A stretch of DNA of 32,971 nucleotides from Burkholderiales bacterium (GTDB taxonomy: Bacteria; Pseudomonadota; Gammaproteobacteria; Burkholderiales; Burkholderiaceae_F): NCBI GenBank assembly GCA_900290335.1, contig OKRD01000113.1, positions 1-32,971 on the forward strand. Reading direction: 5' to 3'. A model generated the notes under the pieces. The model made no database searches. It was not told the origin of the DNA and saw only the letters and a program-made list of their open reading frames with translations. Within the stretch, counting starts at the first letter, position 1. Every line of letters begins with the position of its first letter. Shown piece after piece: positions 8,518 to 23,166 of the stretch. A program made the translations under genes and the position numbers.

Positions 8518-9582
8518 ATGCTGTACCGCGAAAACGGCCAGTTCAAGACCAGCTACCGCGCCGACCAGCAGCTGCTGCCGATCACGCAGGACCGCTGGTT
8601 AATGATTGCCTTGATCGCGCTGTCCTTCCTCGTGGTGCCGTTTGTCGCCAGCGATTACGCTTTCCGTGCGCTGATTGTGCCGTTTCTGATCCTCACCATC
8701 GCGGCCATCGGCCTCAACATCCTGGTGGGCTACTGCGGCCAGATCTCGCTGGGCAGCGCTGGCTTCATGGGCGTGGGCGCCTACGTCGCCTATAACCTGA
8801 CGGTGCGCGTGCCGCAACTCAACTTCCTGGTGGTGCTGTTGCTCTCGGGCGGCAGCGCCGCGCTGGTGGGAATTGCCTTCGGCATCCCCAGCCTGCGGAT
8901 CAAGGGCCTGTACCTGGCGGTGGCCACCCTGGCGGCGCAATTCTTTCTCGACTGGGCGTTTTCTCGAATCCCCTGGTTCACGGTCGATTCGCCCTCGGGC
9001 TCGGTATCGACCAACCTGATCGAGCTGTTCGGCTGGTCGGTCGAGCGCCCGGTCGACAAGTACCTGCTGGTGCTGGGCCTGCTGTGCGCGCTGACATTGG
9101 CAGCCAAGAACCTGACCCGCTCGCACATCGGCCGGGCGTGGATGGCCACGCGCGACATGGACGTGGCCGCGGAGATCATCGGCGTGCGGCCGGTGGTGGC
9201 CAAGCTGAGCGCTTTCGCGGTCAGCTCGTTTTACGCCGGCATCGCCGGGGCCCTCTGGGGCTTCGTGCATCTGGGCGCGTGGGAGCCGGCAGCGTTCAGC
9301 GTCATCTTGTCGCTCAACCTGCTTTTCATGATCATCATCGGCGGCCTGGGGTCGATGATCGGCAGCTTCTTCGGTGCCGCGTTCTTCGTCCTGCTGCCGC
9401 TGCTGCTCAACCGCGTGCCGGGTATGCTGGGGATCGACCTGTCGACCACGATGAAATCCCAACTAGAGGCGATGATCTTTGGCGGCCTGATCGTATTGTT
9501 TCTCGCGATCGAGCCCCGTGGACTGGCGCGCCTGTGGGCGATCGGCAAGGAAAAACTGCGCATCTGGCCGTTTCCACACTAA
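8518..9582 (+). CDS. livM: Branched-chain amino acid-type ABC transporter permease (LivM-like)
   Basis: 'AIGLNILVGYCGQISLGSAGFMGVGAYVAY', 'FMIIIGGLGSMIGSFFGAAF'. Confidence 0.9.
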   Translation: MLYRENGQFKTSYRADQQLLPITQDRWLMIALIALSFLVVPFVASDYAFRALIVPFLILTIAAIGLNILVGYCGQISLGSAGFMGVGAYVAYNLTVRVPQLNFLVVLLLSGGSAALVGIAFGIPSLRIKGLYLAVATLAAQFFLDWAFSRIPWFTVDSPSGSVSTNLIELFGWSVERPVDKYLLVLGLLCALTLAAKNLTRSHIGRAWMATRDMDVAAEIIGVRPVVAKLSAFAVSSFYAGIAGALWGFVHLGAWEPAAFSVILSLNLLFMIIIGGLGSMIGSFFGAAFFVLLPLLLNRVPGMLGIDLSTTMKSQLEAMIFGGLIVLFLAIEPRGLARLWAIGKEKLRIWPFPH

Positions 9583-13166: not shown

Positions 13167-13994
13167 TTAGATCGGTGATCGTTCGGGGACCTCGTCCTCG
13201 ACCATCGTGCGGGCATCACTCTGGACCATGCGACCCATCGCCGGCCGGCTCAAGCCCAGCGCCTCCTTCAGTGCCTGGATCCTGCTTCTGCTGACCGGCA
13301 CGCGTGCCGCCTTGTGCCCGTCCATCACCAAAATGTAATTCTCGCCTTCGCGCTCGATCGTCTTGGCGTGGTGCAGGTTGATGAAGTAGCTGCGGTGCGT
13401 GCGCAGGAACCTGTCCTGGTCCAGCCGCTCCTCGAGGTCGGCCAGGGAGAGATTGCAGAAATACTGCTGCTCCCGCGTGTGCACCGTCGTGTAGTGCGCC
13501 TCGGACTGCATCCAGACCACGTCATCGATCGACAGTAGCAAGACGCGGTTGTGCAGCAGTACCGGCAGCTTGATCAGCTGGCGCGGCCGCACCGGCGTGG
13601 CGCGCAGATCGCCCGTAAGCGGCTTCTCGTCCTGCGTCGTGATATCGGTCAGGTCGTAGAACACGAGACACGTGCCGACGACCGCGCCGCGCCCCACGAG
13701 CTTGGTGACCTTGATCAGCAACACCCGATCGGGGATCGAGATCATCATCGTCATCGGCGGCGGCGAGTCCATCGGGCACTGCGCGGCCTTGTCCGCCGAA
13801 TCGAGCAAGAGCTGGATCTTGTCGCGGCTCTTTTCCGGGTGAAACTGCAGGACCTCCCGGCCGATCGGGTCGCCCCGGATATCCCCCAGAACGCGAACGG
13901 CAACGTTGTTCATACCGGCAATGCGGTTGTCGGCGTCGAGCATGACCACGCCCGGATCGAAGCGCTGCAGCTTGTAGTAGAAGCTTTCCATCAC
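13167..13994 (-). CDS. rcoM: PAS-LytTR single-component regulator, RcoM-type CO-responsive heme sensor
   Basis: N-terminal PAS region 'FDPGVVMLDADNRIAGMNN...VLQFHPEKSRDKIQLLLDSADKAAQCPMDSPPPMTMMISIPDRVLLIKV', C-terminal LytTR 'VVWMQSEAHYTTVHT...NLSLADLEERLDQDRFLRTHRSYFINLHHAK...VPVSRSRIQALKEALG'. Divergent from coxM. Confidence 0.85.
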   Translation of the reverse strand: MMESFYYKLQRFDPGVVMLDADNRIAGMNNVAVRVLGDIRGDPIGREVLQFHPEKSRDKIQLLLDSADKAAQCPMDSPPPMTMMISIPDRVLLIKVTKLVGRGAVVGTCLVFYDLTDITTQDEKPLTGDLRATPVRPRQLIKLPVLLHNRVLLLSIDDVVWMQSEAHYTTVHTREQQYFCNLSLADLEERLDQDRFLRTHRSYFINLHHAKTIEREGENYILVMDGHKAARVPVSRSRIQALKEALGLSRPAMGRMVQSDARTMVEDEVPERSPI

Positions 13995-14119: not shown

Positions 14120-14172
14120 CCTCGGTTCGTGCGCGCCAACCACCGCTCGTGCACCGGCAATGCGTGTTCGTG
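14120..14172 (+). promoter_or_regulatory. Triplet of direct repeats, candidate RcoM/LytTR operator upstream of coxM
   Basis: TTCGTG (14126-14131), CTCGTG (14146-14151), TTCGTG (14167-14172); start-to-start spacing 20 and 21 bp. Motif half-sites preceded by CctCgg / CcaCCG in the first two copies. Confidence 0.7.
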
Positions 14173-14265
14173 AATTTGTGCGCGGCAGCATGAGCGCGCC
14201 AAAAGATACTTATCAACGGTCCGAACTAACCGCTTGCCATCGATACCAAGCCACAAGGAGGGAAC

Positions 14266-15129
14266 GTGATTCCGCGCCCATTCGAATACCACGCACCGTC
14301 GAGCCTGCCCGACGCCCTGCTGCTAATGAGCCGCTACGGCGAGGAAGCCAAGCTACTCGCGGGCGGGCACAGCCTGCTGCCCATGATGAAGCTGCGGTTC
14401 GCCGCGCCGGGCCACCTGATCGATCTGGGCAAGATCGGCGAGTTGAAGGGCATCGAGCAAGTCGGCAGCGAGATCCGCATCGGCGCCATGACAACGGAGA
14501 ACGAGCTCATCTGGTCCCCGCTGCTGGCCCAGAAGCTGCCGTTGCTGGTCGAGGGCGCCGGGCTCATCTCCGATCCGCAAGTGCGCTACCGCGGCACGAT
14601 CGGTGGCGACATTGCACACGCCGATCCGGGCAACGATCACCCGGCGCTGATGCTGGCGCTAGAAGCAAGCTTTGTCCTGCAAGGCGCCAACGGCGAACGC
14701 GTCGTCGCCGCCGACGGCTTCTTCCTGGGCCTGTACTCCACGCTCCTGCAGCCGGGAGAAGTACTGACGCAGATCCGCATTCCGATCCCGCCGCCCGGCT
14801 GCGGCTGGTGCTACGCCAAGCTCAAGCGCAAGACCGGCGACTTCGCGGCCGCCGCTGCGGCCGTGCTGCTGCGGATGAAGGCGGGCAGCGTGGAGGAGGC
14901 GCGGATCGCGCTGACCAACGTGGGCCCGACGCCGCTCAAGGCGCGTGCCGCCCAGACGTACCTGCAGGGCAAGGCGCTCAACGATGCCTCGATCGCCGAG
15001 GCGGCGCGCCTGGCGATGAGCATCTGCGAACCCACGGAAGACCTGCGCGGCGACGTGCAATACAAGACGGCCATGGCCGGCGAAATGACGCAGCGGGCGC
15101 TGCGCACGGCAGCCTCGCGCGCCCGCTAA
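14266..15129 (+). CDS. coxM: Aerobic carbon monoxide dehydrogenase medium (FAD-binding) subunit
   Basis: FAD motifs '[26 protein letters not shown]' and '[19 protein letters not shown]'; GTG start with AAGGAGGGA RBS. Confidence 0.95.
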
Positions 15130-15151: not shown

Positions 15152-15637
15152 ATGGCGATCCCGCGAGAAGTCTCATTCACTGTAAACGGCAAACCGGTCG
15201 ATGTGGTGGTCGAGCCGCGCGAGCTGCTCATCCACACGCTGCGCGAGAGGCTACATACCACCGGCCCACACATCGGCTGCGAGACCTCGCACTGCGGCGC
15301 CTGCACCGTCGACATCGACAACATGTCGGTCAAATCCTGCACCATGCTCACGGTGCAGTGCCAGGGCGCCAAGGTGCTCACCATCGAGGGCTTCGAGCAA
15401 GGCGGCCAGCTGCATGCGCTGCAGGAGGCCTTCACCCAGGATCACGCCTTGCAGTGCGGCTACTGTACGCCGGGCATGATCACCCGCGCCTACCGGCTGC
15501 TGCAGGAAAACCCCCATCCGAGCGAGCAGGAGATCCGCTACTGGATGGCGGGCAACCTGTGCCGCTGCACGGGGTACCAGAACATCGTCAAGGCGGTGCA
15601 GGACGCGGCCGGAAAGCTGGCGGCGAAGGCGGCCTGA
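15152..15637 (+). CDS. coxS: Aerobic carbon monoxide dehydrogenase small ([2Fe-2S]) subunit
   Basis: '[25 protein letters not shown]' and '[21 protein letters not shown]...[16 protein letters not shown]' two [2Fe-2S] cluster motifs. Confidence 0.96.
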
Positions 15638-15701: not shown

Positions 15702-18110
15702 ATGCCTGATACCAACGTGGTTGCGCGCGAACGCGAAGACAAGCTGCAGGGAATGGGTTGCTCGCGCAAGCGCAAGGAGGACGCGCGCTTCATCCGTGGC
15801 CAGGGCACGTACGTCGATGACATCAAGCTGCCCGGCATGCTGTTCGGCGCAATGGTGCGCAGCCCCTACGCCCATGCCCGCATCAAGTCGATCAACAAGG
15901 CCAAGGCGCTGGCGGTTCCGGGCGTGGTCGCGGTGCTGGTCGCCGATGATCTCAAACCGGTGAACCTGGCGTGGATGCCGACGCTCGGCGGCGACGTGCA
16001 GGCCGTGCTGGCCGACAAGAAAGTCTGCTTCCAGTACCAGGAAGTCGCCTTCGTGATCGCCAGCGACCGCTACGCGGCCGCCGATGGCGCCGAAGCGGTG
16101 GAAGTGGAGTACGAGGAGCTGCCGGCCATCGTCGACCCGCACCGCGCCATGGCCAAGGACGCACCCATCATCCGCGAGGACATCGCCGACAAGACCGAGG
16201 TTGGCCACGGCCCGCGCACGCACCCCAACCACATCTTCACCTGGGAGGCCGGCGACAAGGCTGCCACCGACGCGGTGTTTGCCAGTGCCCCGGTGACCGT
16301 GCGCGAGGAAATACTCAATCCGCGTGTGCACCCCTGCCCGCTCGAGACCTGCGGCTGCGTCGCCTCCTTCAGCAAGGCCACGGGGCAGCTGACCGTATTC
16401 ATGACCTCGCAGGCACCTCACCTGGTGCGAACGGTGGTGTCCATGCTCTCGGGCATCGCGGAAAGCAAGATTCGCATCGTCGGCGGCGACATCGGCGGAG
16501 GCTTCGGCAACAAGGTGCCGGTCTACCCGGGCTACGTGGTGTCCATCGTGGCCTCCATCGTCACCGGGGTGCCGATCAAGTGGATCGAGTCGCGCATCGA
16601 GAACATTTCCACCACGGGATTTGCCCGCGACTATCACGGCATCGGCGAACTGGCGGCCGACAAGGACGGGCGCATCAAGGCCTTGCGCTTCACCGCGCTG
16701 GCCGATCACGGCGCCTTCAATGCGCATGTCTCGGCCACCAAGCTGCCGGCCGGGCTGTTCAGCATCTGCACCGGCTCCTACGACATTCCCAAGGCCTACT
16801 GCCGGGTCGACGCGGTCTACACCAACAAGGCGCCCGGCGGCGTGGCCTACCGTTGCTCGCTGCGCGTCACCGAGGCCGTCTACCTGATCGAACGCATGAT
16901 CGATGTGCTGGCGCAGAAGATCGGCGTCGACAAGGCCGAGATCCGGCGGCGCAACTTCGTCAAGGCCGAGCAGTTCCCCTACACCACGGCCTTGGGCTGG
17001 ACGCTCGATAGCGGCAACTACCACCAGGCGCTGGACAAGGTGCTGCAGGCGGTGGACTACGAGGGCCTGCGCCGGGAGCAGGCGCAAAAGCGCGCCAAGG
17101 GCGAGCTCATGGGGATCGGCATTTCGACGTTCACCGAGATCGTCGGCGCGGGACCGACCAAAGTCTGCGACATCCTGGGCATCGGCCTCTTCGACAGCTG
17201 CGAGATCCGCGTGCACCCCACGGGGAGCGTCATTGCCCGCCTGGGCACCATGAGCCAGGGCCAGGGTCACGCGACGACGTACGCGCAGATCATCGCCACG
17301 GAGCTGGGCCTGCCCTCAGAGGACATCCAGATCGAGGAAGGCGACACCGACAAGGCGCCCTACGGCGCCGGTACCTGGGGCTCGCGCTCCACTCCCGTGG
17401 CCGGAGCCGCCGCGGCCCGCGCGGCGCGCAAGATCATGGACAAGGCCAAGAAGATCGCCGCGCACCTGCTCGAGGTGGGCGAGGGCGACCTGGAGTGGGA
17501 GGTCGATCGCTTCAAGGTCAAGGGCAACCCGAGCGAGGTCAAGACCATGAAGGAGATCTGCATGGCCTCGCACACCAGCAACATTCCCGCCGGCATGGAG
17601 CAGGGCCTGAACGCGGTGGAATACTACGATCCGCCCAACCTGACGTTTCCCTTCGGCGCCTACGTCTGCGTGGTCGACATCGACCGGTTCACCGGCGAGA
17701 CCAAGGTGCGGCGCTTCTACGCGCTGGACGATTGCGGCACGCGCATCAATCCGATGATCATCGAAGGCCAGATCCACGGCGGCCTGACCGAGGCCTTTGC
17801 GGTGGCCATGGGCCAGGCGATGCCCTTCGACGAAAACGGCAACCACCTGGGCAACAGCCTCATGGACTACTTCCTGCCGACGACGGTCGAGGCCCCCAAG
17901 TGGGAGACCGACTTCACGGTGACGCCCTCGCCGCACCACCCGATCGGCGCCAAGGGCGTGGCCGAGTCACCGCACGTCGGCGGCATCCCGTGCTTCAGCA
18001 ACGCGATCGTCGACGCCTTCGCGCACCTGGGGGTGACGCACATGGACATGCCGCATACGTCGTTCCGCGTGTGGCAAAAATGCCATGCGCTCGGACTAAA
18101 CAAGCGATAG
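15702..18110 (+). CDS. coxL: Aerobic carbon monoxide dehydrogenase large (Mo/Cu) subunit, form I-like with variant active-site loop
   Basis: 'GGGFGNKVPVYPGYVV', 'GGVAYRCSLRVTEAVYLIERM', 'YALDDCGTRINPMIIEGQIHGGLTEAFAVAMGQ', 'TPSPHHPIGAKGVAESPHVGG'. 802 aa, colinear with form I CoxL. Confidence 0.95.
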   Translation: MPDTNVVAREREDKLQGMGCSRKRKEDARFIRGQGTYVDDIKLPGMLFGAMVRSPYAHARIKSINKAKALAVPGVVAVLVADDLKPVNLAWMPTLGGDVQAVLADKKVCFQYQEVAFVIASDRYAAADGAEAVEVEYEELPAIVDPHRAMAKDAPIIREDIADKTEVGHGPRTHPNHIFTWEAGDKAATDAVFASAPVTVREEILNPRVHPCPLETCGCVASFSKATGQLTVFMTSQAPHLVRTVVSMLSGIAESKIRIVGGDIGGGFGNKVPVYPGYVVSIVASIVTGVPIKWIESRIENISTTGFARDYHGIGELAADKDGRIKALRFTALADHGAFNAHVSATKLPAGLFSICTGSYDIPKAYCRVDAVYTNKAPGGVAYRCSLRVTEAVYLIERMIDVLAQKIGVDKAEIRRRNFVKAEQFPYTTALGWTLDSGNYHQALDKVLQAVDYEGLRREQAQKRAKGELMGIGISTFTEIVGAGPTKVCDILGIGLFDSCEIRVHPTGSVIARLGTMSQGQGHATTYAQIIATELGLPSEDIQIEEGDTDKAPYGAGTWGSRSTPVAGAAAARAARKIMDKAKKIAAHLLEVGEGDLEWEVDRFKVKGNPSEVKTMKEICMASHTSNIPAGMEQGLNAVEYYDPPNLTFPFGAYVCVVDIDRFTGETKVRRFYALDDCGTRINPMIIEGQIHGGLTEAFAVAMGQAMPFDENGNHLGNSLMDYFLPTTVEAPKWETDFTVTPSPHHPIGAKGVAESPHVGGIPCFSNAIVDAFAHLGVTHMDMPHTSFRVWQKCHALGLNKR

Positions 18111-18135: not shown

Positions 18136-18774
18136 ATGAAGGTTCAGCTGCAACAGTCCTATCCCATGCCAGCCTCCGCCGAAATCGTCTGGGGGTTCTT
18201 GCAGAACATCGAGGCGGTTGCCGGGTGCATGCCCGGCGCCAAGATCACCGAGCGCGTCGATGACCAGCACTACAAGGGCACGGTGACCGTGCGCGCGGGA
18301 CCGGCGACCATGTCGTTCCGCGGCCAGGTCGAGGTCAAGGACATCGACGGCGCCACGCGCACGCTGCGCCTGCTGGGCAAGGGCACCGACACCACCGGGA
18401 CCTCCGGCGCATCCATGGATTTGACCGCGCGCGTGGAGAGCGCGGGCACGGCCAGCAATCTGGTGGGGACGAGCGAGGTCACCATGAGCGGCAAGGCGGC
18501 GGCGTTCGGCGGCCGGGTCATGAACGCCGTGGCCGACGAGGTCCTCAAGCAGTTTGCGGGCAACTTCGCGGCCCAGGTTGCGGCCCTGGCCGCCGCGCCG
18601 GGCTCGAGCGCTTCCCCGGGTGGCGGCGCGGCGCCGCCGCCGGGCGCGGCGGGCACATCGGCAGCAGGCGCACAGACCTTGCCGCCGCCGGCGCGCGAGT
18701 TGAACGGGCTGGCACTGCTGTGGGCCGTCGTGCGCAACTGGCTGCGCTCGCTCTTTGGCAAGAGTCCGGCATGA
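18136..18774 (+). CDS. coxG: CoxG family SRPBCC protein with C-terminal hydrophobic tail
   Basis: 'MKVQLQQSYPMPASAEIVWGFLQNIEAVAGCMPGAKITERVDDQHYKGTVTVRAGPATMSFRGQVEVKD', Pro/Gly/Ala linker, then 'LALLWAVVRNWLRSLFG'. Confidence 0.93.
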   Translation: MKVQLQQSYPMPASAEIVWGFLQNIEAVAGCMPGAKITERVDDQHYKGTVTVRAGPATMSFRGQVEVKDIDGATRTLRLLGKGTDTTGTSGASMDLTARVESAGTASNLVGTSEVTMSGKAAAFGGRVMNAVADEVLKQFAGNFAAQVAALAAAPGSSASPGGGAAPPPGAAGTSAAGAQTLPPPARELNGLALLWAVVRNWLRSLFGKSPA

Positions 18775-19658
18775 GGGTTTTTGCCGATACCGACGAACTC
18801 GTCAACCGGCTCGAACATGCCGGCTACATAACAGAGCAGGGCCTGGCCGTCAGCCTGATGCTGATGTCGCAGCTGCAGCGCCCCCTGCTGGTCGAGGGCG
18901 ATGCGGGCGTGGGCAAGACCGAGATCGCCAAGGCGCTGGCCGCGGCGTATGAGTGCGAGCTGATCCGGCTGCAATGCTACGAGGGGCTCGACGTCAACGC
19001 CGCCGTGTATGAATGGAACTACCAGCGGCAACTGCTGGCCATCAAGCTGCAGGAGACCGAAAAGTCCTCGCTGGCCGAGAAGGAGCGCCACGTCTTCAGC
19101 GAAGGCTACCTGCTGCAGCGGCCCCTGCTGCAGGCGATCAGCCGTCCACAGCCGCCGGTGTTGCTGATCGACGAGGTCGACCGCGCCGACGAGGAGTTCG
19201 AGGCCTATCTGCTCGAGGTACTGTCCGATTATCAGATCAGCATCCCGGAGCTGGGCACCATCAAGGCGACCAGCATTCCCCATGTCGTGCTGACCTCCAA
19301 CGGCACGCGGGAACTGAGCGATGCCTTGCGTCGCCGCTGCCTGTACTTCTACCTCGACTATCCGAGCTACGACAAGGAGCTGCGCATCGTCCTGGCGCGC
19401 GTGCCGCAGATCGAGGAGCGGCTCGCCGGCCAGATCGTTGCCTTCGTGCAGAAGCTGCGCGGCGAGGACCTGCAAAAGCGCCCGGGAACGGCCGAGACGC
19501 TCGATTGGGCCGCCGCGCTGGTGAAAATGCGCATACGCTCGCTCGACACGAACCCCGATTTCCTTGCCCAGACCCTGGTGTGCCTGCTCAAGACCCGCGA
19601 AGACCGGGCCGCCATGCCGCCGAGCGTGACCGCGCGGCTGCTGGCGCAGTCCGTGTAG
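18771..19658 (+). CDS. coxD: CoxD-type MoxR family AAA+ ATPase
   Basis: Walker A 'LLVEGDAGVGKTEIAKALA', Walker B 'PPVLLIDEVDRADEEFEAYLLEVLSDYQISIPELG'. ATG 18771 overlaps the coxG stop; 295 aa. Confidence 0.93.
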   Translation: MRVFADTDELVNRLEHAGYITEQGLAVSLMLMSQLQRPLLVEGDAGVGKTEIAKALAAAYECELIRLQCYEGLDVNAAVYEWNYQRQLLAIKLQETEKSSLAEKERHVFSEGYLLQRPLLQAISRPQPPVLLIDEVDRADEEFEAYLLEVLSDYQISIPELGTIKATSIPHVVLTSNGTRELSDALRRRCLYFYLDYPSYDKELRIVLARVPQIEERLAGQIVAFVQKLRGEDLQKRPGTAETLDWAAALVKMRIRSLDTNPDFLAQTLVCLLKTREDRAAMPPSVTARLLAQSV

Positions 19659-19678
19659 CCCACCGGCGCAGGCCGCGC

Positions 19679-20857
19679 ATGACCGACGCCCCCTTGCCTG
19701 CCCCGCGCGCGAGCGCGCGCACCGAACCCGCGCCGCTGCTCGCGGGTCGGATCGTCGAATTCGTCCGGCTGGTGCGCGCCAACCATTTCCGGGTCGGTGT
19801 TCAGGAATCCCTGGACGCGGTCAACGTCGCCGCCTGCGTGAACATGGCCGACCAGCGTCAGTTGCGCTGGGGACTGCGTTCGCTGCTGTGTTCGGATCCG
19901 GCCGACTGGAGGAACTTCGATCGGCTCTTTGACCGCTATTGGCAGCGTCCGAACGCCGCCGCGGTCGAGGTGACGGTCAGCGGCAGCATCGATCGCGCCG
20001 AGTCCGGCGCCCGCGCGGCGCCGGATCGCCCGACCCCTCCGAGCGAGGCCAACGAGGGTGAAGACCCGCGGCAGGACGCACTGCGGGTCGGTGCCAGCCG
20101 CCGCGACGCGATCACGCGCAGCGACTTTCGCCTAGCGCAGCTCAACCAGGACACCCATGCCCTGGAGCAATGGATCGAGCAGCTGGCGCGGCGCATGCGC
20201 AAGCGCCTGCTGCGCCGGCACCAGATCCGCAGCGCCGGGAGCCGCATCCACCTGCGCCGCACGGTGCGCCGCAGCCTGTCGCACGGCGGCCTGCCGCTGG
20301 AGCTCCTCTTCCACGAGCGCCGCCGCGAGCTGCCACGCCTGGTGCTGATCACCGACGTCAGCCGCTCGATGAACGTCTACAGCTACTTCTTCCTGCGCTT
20401 TGCGCGCGGCATCATCGACGCCTTCCGCGACACCGATGCCTTCGTCTTCCACACGCGGCTCGTCCCCGTGACCGACACGCTGCGCGAGCGCGACGCGCAC
20501 CGGCTCAAGGAGAAGCTCGCCTGGATCGCCGCCGGCTGGGGCGGCGGCACCCGCATCGGCGAGAGCCTGCAGGCCTTCAACCGCGAGCACGCCCGCCGCC
20601 TGGTCGATTCGCGCACCTGCGTGTTCATCGTCAGCGACGGCTACGACACGGGCGAGCCGGCACTGCTGGGCGAAGAGGTCCGTCGCCTGCGCCGGCGCGC
20701 CAGGCGGGTGGTCTGGCTCAACCCGCTGCTGGGCCGCGACGACTACGCGCCCACCGCGGGCGGCATGCAGGCGGCCCTGCCGCACCTGGATCTGTTTGCC
20801 CCGGCCCATAACCTGGAGAGCCTGATGAAGATCGAACACCTGCTCGCGCGCTGGTAG
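19679..20857 (+). CDS. coxE: CoxE-type VWA (MIDAS) domain protein
   Basis: MIDAS 'LVLITDVSRSMNVYSYFFLRFARGIIDAFRDTDAFVFHTRL', 'GGGTRIGESLQAFNREHARRLVDSRTCVFIVSDGYDTGEP'. Confidence 0.92.
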   Translation: MTDAPLPAPRASARTEPAPLLAGRIVEFVRLVRANHFRVGVQESLDAVNVAACVNMADQRQLRWGLRSLLCSDPADWRNFDRLFDRYWQRPNAAAVEVTVSGSIDRAESGARAAPDRPTPPSEANEGEDPRQDALRVGASRRDAITRSDFRLAQLNQDTHALEQWIEQLARRMRKRLLRRHQIRSAGSRIHLRRTVRRSLSHGGLPLELLFHERRRELPRLVLITDVSRSMNVYSYFFLRFARGIIDAFRDTDAFVFHTRLVPVTDTLRERDAHRLKEKLAWIAAGWGGGTRIGESLQAFNREHARRLVDSRTCVFIVSDGYDTGEPALLGEEVRRLRRRARRVVWLNPLLGRDDYAPTAGGMQAALPHLDLFAPAHNLESLMKIEHLLARW

Positions 20858-20872
20858 CGCAAGGACCCACCA

Positions 20873-21850
20873 GTGCAAGCCACCACCGACGAGCGCGGCG
20901 TCGCCCCAGGACCGGGGCCGGCGACGGCCGGCGAACTGCTGCAGCTGGCGCAGGAGCTGCTCCGGCGCGGCGAAGCCTACGCCATGGTGACCGTGGTGCG
21001 CGCCGTGGCGCCGAGCTCGGCCTTTGCGGGCGCACAAGCCCTGGTGCGCAGCGACGGGTCACTGCACGGCTGGATCGGCGGGGGCTGTGCCAAGCAGGTG
21101 GTCATCCAGGCCGCACTCGAGGCGATCGGCGTGGGTGCGCCCAGGCTGGTGCGCATCGGCAACGAGTCCGAAGTGCTGGCCACCGATGTCGAGTCCCATC
21201 CCATGCCCTGCGCCAGCAACGGGACCATCGAGTTGTTCATTCACCCGTTCCCGGACGCGCCGCTGCTGCAGGTACTGGGCAGCACTCCGGTGGCCGCCTG
21301 CGCGCGCGTGTTTGCCCAGCAGCTCGGCCTGCGGGTGAGCAGCCAAACGCAAGGCATCCATCCCCAGGTGGCACTGGTCGCCACCCAGGGCGAGGGCGAT
21401 GAGCCGGCACTGGAGGCGGCGCTGGCGGGCACGGCGCAACGCGTGCTGATGATCGCCAGCGCCCGCAAGGCGCAACGACTGCGAGAGACGCTGCGCCAGC
21501 GCGGCGTGAGCGAGGAGGCGGCGCTCGAAGCTCCCGCCGGTCCCGACATCGGCGCGCGCACGCCGGCCGAGATCGCGCTGGCTGCAGTCGCCGGGGTGGT
21601 CGCGTGGTGGCGCACCGCTGGCAGGCAAGCGGTGCCGGCCAGGCCGCAAGCCACGCCCGCAGCGGCGCCCGGCGCGACGACGGCCGTGGATCCGGTCTGC
21701 GGCATGCTCGTCGATCCGGCGCACTCGCAGCACAGCCTCGAATACGAAGGCGTGCGCTGGCACTTTTGCTGCGCAGGCTGCCAGGCGGCCTTCGCGCGCG
21801 AGCCGGCGCGCTACGCCGCGAGCCGGGCAAGCGCGCGGCACGCGGCCTGA
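20873..21850 (+). CDS. coxF: XdhC/CoxF family protein with C-terminal YHS domain
   Basis: 'ALVRSDGSLHGWIGGGCAKQVVIQAALEAIG' (XdhC_CoxI), Rossmann-like middle, C-terminal 'DPVCGMLVDPAHSQHSLEYEGVRWHFCCAGCQAAFAREPARYA' (YHS). Confidence 0.9.
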   Translation: MQATTDERGVAPGPGPATAGELLQLAQELLRRGEAYAMVTVVRAVAPSSAFAGAQALVRSDGSLHGWIGGGCAKQVVIQAALEAIGVGAPRLVRIGNESEVLATDVESHPMPCASNGTIELFIHPFPDAPLLQVLGSTPVAACARVFAQQLGLRVSSQTQGIHPQVALVATQGEGDEPALEAALAGTAQRVLMIASARKAQRLRETLRQRGVSEEAALEAPAGPDIGARTPAEIALAAVAGVVAWWRTAGRQAVPARPQATPAAAPGATTAVDPVCGMLVDPAHSQHSLEYEGVRWHFCCAGCQAAFAREPARYAASRASARHAA

Positions 21851-21865
21851 GTCCGGGACGGCGCC

Positions 21866-22510
21866 ATGACGACCGACACCATCGGCTTTTCGGCAATCGT
21901 GCTTGCCGCGGGCACGTCCTCGCGCATGCAAGGCGCGCACAAGCTGCTGCTACCGGTGGGCGAGGAGCCGGTCATCCGCCGCACCGTACGCGCGGTGCTC
22001 GATGCTGGGCCGCAGGAGCTCGTCGTGGTGACCGGCTACCGGGAGGCTGCGGTACGCGATGCCCTCGCGGGACTGCCGGTGCGGCTGCAGGCCAACCGCG
22101 CTTTCGAGGACGGCCAGATGAGCTCGGTGGCCGCGGGCGTGGCCGCGCTGACCCAGGCCACCGACGCCGTGATGGTGTGCCTGGGCGACATGGTGCTGCT
22201 CACCGGCGACGACTACCGGGAGCTGGTGCGCGCATTCGCCGCGCTCCGCGACCAGTCCATCCTCGTGCCGCAGTTTCAGGGCCAGCGCGGCAACCCGGTG
22301 GTCATCGCGCAATGGCACCTGCCGCAGCTGCTCGCGGGCCAGCGCAACCTGGGCTGCCGCAAGCTGGTCGCGGACTACCCGCAGGAGGTCTTTGCCTACG
22401 AGGCGGCCCATGACCGCTTCGTCAGCGACATGGACACGCCGCAAGACTACGAGCGCATCTTGCGTCGCCTCGAATCGGCCGGCGGATCAGCGCAGGGGCA
22501 GATCGCATGA
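21866..22510 (+). CDS. mocA: MocA-like nucleotidyltransferase (molybdenum cofactor cytidylyltransferase family)
   Basis: 'FSAIVLAAGTSSRMQGAHKLLLPVGEEPVIRRTVRAVL', 'VMVCLGDMVLLTGDDYRELV', 'QGQRGNPVVIAQWHL'. Confidence 0.9.
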   Translation: MTTDTIGFSAIVLAAGTSSRMQGAHKLLLPVGEEPVIRRTVRAVLDAGPQELVVVTGYREAAVRDALAGLPVRLQANRAFEDGQMSSVAAGVAALTQATDAVMVCLGDMVLLTGDDYRELVRAFAALRDQSILVPQFQGQRGNPVVIAQWHLPQLLAGQRNLGCRKLVADYPQEVFAYEAAHDRFVSDMDTPQDYERILRRLESAGGSAQGQIA

Positions 22511-23166
22511 GCAGCGCTTCGCTGGGCGCGCGGACCCCCGCGGCACCGACCCTGCTTGCGGCAGGCACGTTGCTGGCGCTGGTGGCCTGGGCCTGGCGTC
22601 TGGCCGCGGTGCACGGCGAACACGAGATGATCTGGGGGCAGATTACGGTGGGTGCGATCCTGGCCGGCTTCGCGGCCCTGGGCTGGCTGCGCTCGGCGCG
22701 GGTGGGCATGACCGCGCCCCAGATCATGCTGCTGCTGGGGGCGGTCGGCATGGTCGGCGGACTGGCGCACGACGAGCATGCGGGCGGCTTCGCCGCGCTG
22801 GTGTCGCTGTGCCGTGCGGGCCCGGGAAGCTTTCTGAGCACGCTGCGCCTGCATTGGCAGCTGCTGCCCGGCATGCACCTGGGCATGATCGCGGGCGGCC
22901 TGGCGACGGTACCGCTGCTGCGCGGCCTGCGCCGCGGTTGCCGGCGACAGTTTTGCGCGCGCCTGCTGCAGAACCTGGCGTGCTCGGCGTGGATGGTGGC
23001 CGGCATGGGCGCCGGCACCCTGGTCTTCGGCAACCTGGCCGCGTGGGCGGGCGAGCGCAGCGCGCCGGCCGTGCTGGGCGGGATGTTCGTCGGCATGGTT
23101 TGGGGCATGGTCGCCAGCGTGGCGATGTACCGCCTGTGGTTCGGGCTGCGTTCGACGCCGGGTTAA
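22507..23166 (+). CDS. Uncharacterised Met-rich polytopic membrane protein
   Basis: 219 aa, ATGA overlap with mocA. Several hydrophobic segments with repeated GM/His-Met motifs (GMHLGMIAGG, VAGMGAG, GMFVGMVWGMVASVAM). Confidence 0.75.
   Translation: MSSASLGARTPAAPTLLAAGTLLALVAWAWRLAAVHGEHEMIWGQITVGAILAGFAALGWLRSARVGMTAPQIMLLLGAVGMVGGLAHDEHAGGFAALVSLCRAGPGSFLSTLRLHWQLLPGMHLGMIAGGLATVPLLRGLRRGCRRQFCARLLQNLACSAWMVAGMGAGTLVFGNLAAWAGERSAPAVLGGMFVGMVWGMVASVAMYRLWFGLRSTPG

Follow-up and report, generated by a model that had tools for sequence, protein, structure and literature searches.

Genes at the locus

The stretch of DNA analysed here, called the window (32,971 nucleotides), carries a regulatory gene that is divergent from a set of CO dehydrogenase genes. 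The regulatory gene, rcoM, lies on the minus strand at 13167-13991 and encodes a single-component regulator of 274 amino acids with a PAS (heme) domain and a LytTR domain, as judged from the open reading frame, Pfam, alignment, and a fold model. A preliminary description of this DNA had reported an open reading frame at 13167-13994, and it is present there on the minus strand; the PAS-region peptides quoted from it agree with the translation. An in-frame GTG at 13994 immediately precedes an ATG at 13991, which is the likely start codon. Because homologues start at the position of the ATG, residue numbers are one lower than those given earlier. In other words, the residues named H52, C73, and M83 were the right ones but had been counted from the GTG, and they are H51, C72, and M82 when counted from the ATG.

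Pfam places a PAS domain (PF00989) at residues 9-111 with 25.9 bits, barely above the cut-off of 22.6, and a LytTR domain (PF04397) at residues 149-245 with 92.1 bits against the same cut-off value. The predicted order, PAS and then LytTR, was thus borne out. RcoM is a soluble protein with a PAS domain at the N terminus and a LytTR domain at the C terminus, and this architecture is seen with Pfam, the fold model, and Foldseek. The N-terminal seven-helix MHYT domain of CoxC-type regulators is not found by Pfam; a PAS domain stands in its place. The LytTR domain is followed by a tail of ~27 residues (SRPAMGRMVQSDARTMVEDEVPERSPI, 13167-13250), which is missing in relatives and has very low model confidence.

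The preliminary description also held that rcoM is divergent from a CO dehydrogenase operon, and an intact coxMSLGDE-coxI-mocA operon does adjoin it on the plus strand. The operon begins with coxM (14266-15129), which encodes the FAD subunit of the Mo/Cu CO dehydrogenase (Pfam) and has a GTG start with a AAGGAGGG ribosome-binding site. It is followed by coxS (15152-15637), encoding the [2Fe-2S] subunit, and coxL (15702-18110), encoding the form I large subunit. Downstream are coxG (18136-18774), coxD (18771-19658, a MoxR-like AAA ATPase), coxE (19655-20857, a VWA protein), a coxI/XdhC-type maturation factor with a fused YHS domain at its C terminus (20873-21850), and a mocA-like molybdenum cofactor cytidylyltransferase (21866-22510). 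The operon ends with a membrane protein gene (22507-23166) that overlaps mocA; its product matches no family and has a homologue in the RcoM-cox cluster of an Oxalobacteraceae locus (L044). To the left of rcoM, genes for a branched-chain-type ABC transporter and AMP-binding ligases form a cluster that is convergent with it.

The genes coxM, coxS, and coxL follow one another in the order of form I operons. CoxL scores 1384 bits on TIGR02416, whose equivalog cut-off is 991, and is 71-88% identical to form I CoxL proteins versus 38% to the form II protein of the same genome. Both its phylogenetic placement and the curated model of the large subunit assign it to form I. The form II CoxL-like protein is encoded on another contig of that genome (L060, G000:C106:26063-28390) and carries the motif AYRGAGR.

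Predicted heme ligands and fold of the regulator

His51 (codon 13839-13841, minus strand) immediately precedes the predicted F helix of the PAS domain and, from alignment and model, is the predicted proximal heme ligand, equivalent to His74 of PxRcoM-1. Cys72 (13776-13778, minus strand) is predicted by alignment to be the ligand of the oxidised state, equivalent to Cys94. His74 and Cys94 are heme ligands of RcoM-1. Met82 (13746-13748, minus strand) is the predicted CO-replaceable ligand by alignment with Met104 of PxRcoM-1, the residue that, according to the title of a paper by Bowman et al. cited in PMC9670170, CO replaces in RcoM-1.

The preliminary description had assigned the same His/Cys/Met set and had proposed an alignment with the RcoM proteins of B. 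xenovorans. Plasmid copies from P. aromaticivorans and Caballeronia stood in for those proteins, and the ligands align: H51, C72, and M82 fall on H75, C95, and M105 of the P. aromaticivorans RcoM, where M105 is the published Met104 plus one. All three residues, together with a PP-MTMMI block, are invariant in a 12-row alignment of homologues. The RcoM peptide quoted in the preliminary description, GGCPVKSPPPVAMMINIPDR, occurs letter for letter in the copy of Caballeronia sp. SBC2. The kinship extends over the whole protein, with 43.7% identity over 90% of its length to the P. aromaticivorans RcoM. The distance from Cys to Met is 10 wherever it was measured. The RcoM of genome G319 has Leu in place of the second Met of the pair but retains the first, and therefore the first Met, M82 in the window, is the constant member of the pair. 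The one-residue insertion between His and Cys that had been pointed out earlier is real (a distance of 21 versus 20 in Paraburkholderia), but the emphasis on it was unwarranted. This distance varies freely from 17 to 23 in relatives, and the insertion was dropped as a novelty.

A structural model, also proposed as a check, was built from protein sequences (AlphaFold2, 11 sequences; mean pLDDT 75, pTM 0.70). It shows one domain folded as a PAS domain and one as a LytTR domain, with H51 directly ahead of helix 53-65. Heme PAS proteins have their proximal histidine at the corresponding position before that helix. Model confidence is low in the PAS loop that bears C72 and M82 (block means of 53-63 pLDDT). 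The top Foldseek matches are LytTR structures (3d6w, E 3e-8, and AgrA), and the PAS part matches the heme PAS of E. coli DOS (1vb6, E 1.3e-3) among several PAS domains. A sequence-only search found no RcoM structure in the PDB. Thus, the fold model agrees with heme binding, short of proving it.

Does the heme site sense CO? One could imagine a PAS-LytTR regulator of cox genes that responds through the same site to another signal, such as O2, the redox state, or NO. O2-sensing heme PAS domains such as that of E. coli DOS are roughly as close to the PAS part of the model as other PAS domains are, and Cys72 would permit a redox switch. However, the protein has the His/Cys/Met set and the SPPPxxMMI block of RcoM, the linked operon encodes an enzyme whose substrate is CO, and the RcoM proteins studied bind CO with nanomolar affinity in air (PMC9670170; PMC11160397). 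We regard a signal other than CO as very improbable.

A triple-repeat operator between rcoM and coxM

The operator of RcoM1 consists of three TTCNNGCA direct repeats at a spacing of 12-13 bp (PMC11347149). The gap between rcoM and coxM contains a predicted operator of this type at 14126-14174, upstream of the cox genes and oriented towards coxM. A motif scan gives its plus-strand repeats as TTCGTGCG (14126-14133), CTCGTGCA (14146-14153), and TTCGTGAA (14167-14174), so that the site reads TTCGTGCG-N12-CTCGTGCA-N13-TTCGTGAA. It matches the RcoM1-type pattern at 15 of 18 specified bases (P ~0.001 in a simulation of the gap). A search of the entire 2.76-Mb genome with this pattern and spacing gives three sites that score at least as high, and a backwards control pattern also yields three; a stricter pattern yields zero sites genome-wide. 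Because the two counts are equal, the evidence lies in the position of the site and not in its rarity.

Further evidence comes from relatives. Nineteen regions were scanned, comprising the window, regions upstream of coxM in relatives, and one ompW region of P. aromaticivorans (L048). Ten of them score at least 14/18 at a spacing of 12-13 bp, compared to 0-3 at spacings outside 11-14 bp. Upstream of coxM in the relatives there is thus an enrichment of sites with the 12-13 bp spacing. Strong sites are present in Uliginosibacterium (TTCACGCG-TTCGTGCA-TTCGTGAA), Rubrivivax, Oxalobacteraceae, both Paraburkholderia plasmid gaps, and G048. In Cocleimonas, Thiothrix, Dyella, CTD079, and some other relatives, the scan found nothing over background. 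Plasmid pBN2 of P. aromaticivorans (L048:7934-8545 and 8546-8949) has a gene for an OmpW-type outer membrane protein between rcoM and coxM, and the ompW-type gene and coxM each have their own RcoM-type triple repeat (16/18 and 15/18, respectively). This arrangement suggests that OmpW is part of the RcoM regulon on pBN2.

The operator bears on a second alternative, namely that the protein is a repressor of coxM released by CO, like the LytTR protein CoxC of Afipia, and not a CO-dependent activator. CoxC represses through an operator of the same triple-repeat type (PMC11347149). A consensus scan found no sigma-70 promoter in the gap from which the operator could be placed relative to a -35 box and an activator told from a repressor. 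However, Pfam detects no MHYT domain and the protein has a soluble RcoM-type PAS heme domain instead; moreover, RcoM is described as activated by CO for DNA binding (PMC11160397). Repression by the window protein is accordingly given only a slim chance, and CO-dependent activation is the preferred reading.

A variant motif in CoxL

The CoxL of the window carries AYRCSLR at residues 382-388, whereas its RcoM-linked relatives have AYRCSFR or SYRCSFR. It departs from the strict AYXCSFR by a change of Phe to Leu and is still within the six form I motifs accepted in PMC13203968, which lists AYRCSLR and notes that it may be less functional. One other AYRCSLR protein was met, the 88% identical CoxL of G023 (L067), a genome that belongs to the same taxonomic order and lacks RcoM. 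The two proteins form a clade with 100/100 support. Between their genes, 9% of first, 5% of second, and 37% of third codon positions differ, and from these differences the pair is under purifying selection.

It could be that the regulator is real and that this CoxL is no longer a good CO dehydrogenase, a view that is compatible with the RcoM assignment. The substitution in the CSFR loop and the remark in PMC13203968 speak for it. Against it are the TIGR02416 score well above the equivalog cut-off, the presence of the variant, with purifying selection between the two, in a CoxL from another family that is 88% identical, and the retention of a complete set of maturation genes and of the operator. 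We consider a poor enzyme unlikely. The locus gives indirect evidence for the retention, as a CO-responsive enzyme, of a CO dehydrogenase variant that is suspected to be less functional.

Distribution and history of the locus

A scan of GTDB contigs returned 14 loci and whole-genome searches added three more. The window RcoM is 44-62% identical to other cox-linked members, and the RcoM loci are found in Uliginosibacterium (59%), Oxalobacteraceae, Dyella, Thiothrix, Cocleimonas, and Chromatiaceae. As in the window, RcoM is linked to CO oxidation genes: form I coxMSL is near RcoM in every locus judged, with L047, a fragment ending inside rcoM, left out. The distance from rcoM to the cox genes is ~3-12 kb in the MAGs of Uliginosibacterium and CTD079. 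The P. aromaticivorans plasmid copy is divergent from coxMSLG and is annotated merely as a LytTR protein. In MAG UBA7957, rcoM is in two frames (L046:3035-3759), which reflects a frameshift or an assembly error.

The RcoM and CoxL trees disagree. For RcoM, the closest neighbors of the window are G048 and Uliginosibacterium; for CoxL, the closest is G023. A CoxL tree uniting the window and G023 with G048 and Uliginosibacterium was rejected (p-AU 0.0017, for a group picked after the trees were seen). Searches of 6 further genomes of the genus and 30 of the family found no RcoM, and form I coxL was found in only one of them, G580. Because of this distribution the rcoM-cox locus is an accessory trait, possibly an acquired one.

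One tentative interpretation, which we put at somewhat below even, is that an RcoM switch and its operator were brought together with form I CO dehydrogenases of the AYRCSLR branch, for which the closest relative identified (G023) lacks RcoM. In that case, the CSLR enzyme would be a genuine CO dehydrogenase that is induced by CO, and RcoM regulators would pass from one cox operon to another without the enzyme moving along.

A model for CO-dependent control

Taken together, the findings make it highly likely that the gene encodes RcoM, a single-component heme-based CO sensor that switches on the divergent cox operon, and the rcoM product very probably controls the neighboring CO dehydrogenase genes. 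In this model, the N-terminal PAS domain would bind heme b, with His51 and Met82 as the ligands of the ferrous form and Cys72 as a ligand of the oxidised form. On the ferrous heme, CO would take the place of Met82. The C-terminal LytTR domains of the dimer would then bind the three direct repeats at 14126-14174, and this binding would switch on transcription of coxMSLGDE-coxI-mocA. The domain order, the conservation of the ligand residues, the intact form I cox operon, and the operator with its conserved spacing are observed; heme binding, exchange of the ligand for CO, CO-dependent DNA binding, and activation are expected by analogy with characterised relatives. The sequence-level predictions made at the outset (domains, ligand residues, and divergent cox operon) all hold, and the RcoM-type triple repeat between rcoM and coxM is an independent test that went beyond them. 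The finding would extend RcoM control of aerobic CO oxidation to another lineage, and it shows the RcoM operator to be predictable from sequence in many proteobacteria.

Comparison with known systems

The closest known counterparts include RcoM-1 and RcoM-2 of Paraburkholderia (Burkholderia) xenovorans LB400. The window protein resembles them in the PAS-LytTR order, the His/Cys/Met set, the Cys-Met spacing of 10, the linkage to cox, and the triple direct-repeat operator with 12-13 bp spacing. It differs from them in an identity of ~44%, measured on the P. aromaticivorans stand-in, in one extra residue between His and Cys, and in the 27-residue C-terminal tail. The heme PAS domain of E. coli DosP (Ec DOS) matches the PAS domain of the window in fold. 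DosP has His/Met ligation of ferrous heme with a His-Met spacing of 18, compared to 31 in the window RcoM, and unlike RcoM it senses O2 and is fused to a phosphodiesterase. Like the window protein, CoxC of Afipia carboxidovorans OM5 is a LytTR protein that regulates form I cox genes and has an operator of three repeats, but it is a repressor and senses CO via a membrane MHYT domain and copper (PMC11347149).

The gene set itself has precedents. Cupriavidus ulmosensis CV2 and Paraburkholderia terrae COX have rcoM, coxMSLGDEF, and mocA in one cluster (PMC11771112). The window is like these clusters in combining rcoM, coxMSLGDE, and mocA with a form I CoxL. It is unlike them in its AYRCSLR motif, which falls outside the AYXCSFR form I motif of PMC11771112, and in the unnamed membrane protein after mocA. 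Since the rcoM-cox-mocA set is published, the locus is a further member of the known RcoM-cox type. Its arrangement is already known from Cupriavidus and Paraburkholderia and is ordinary save for the slightly unusual active site of the enzyme.
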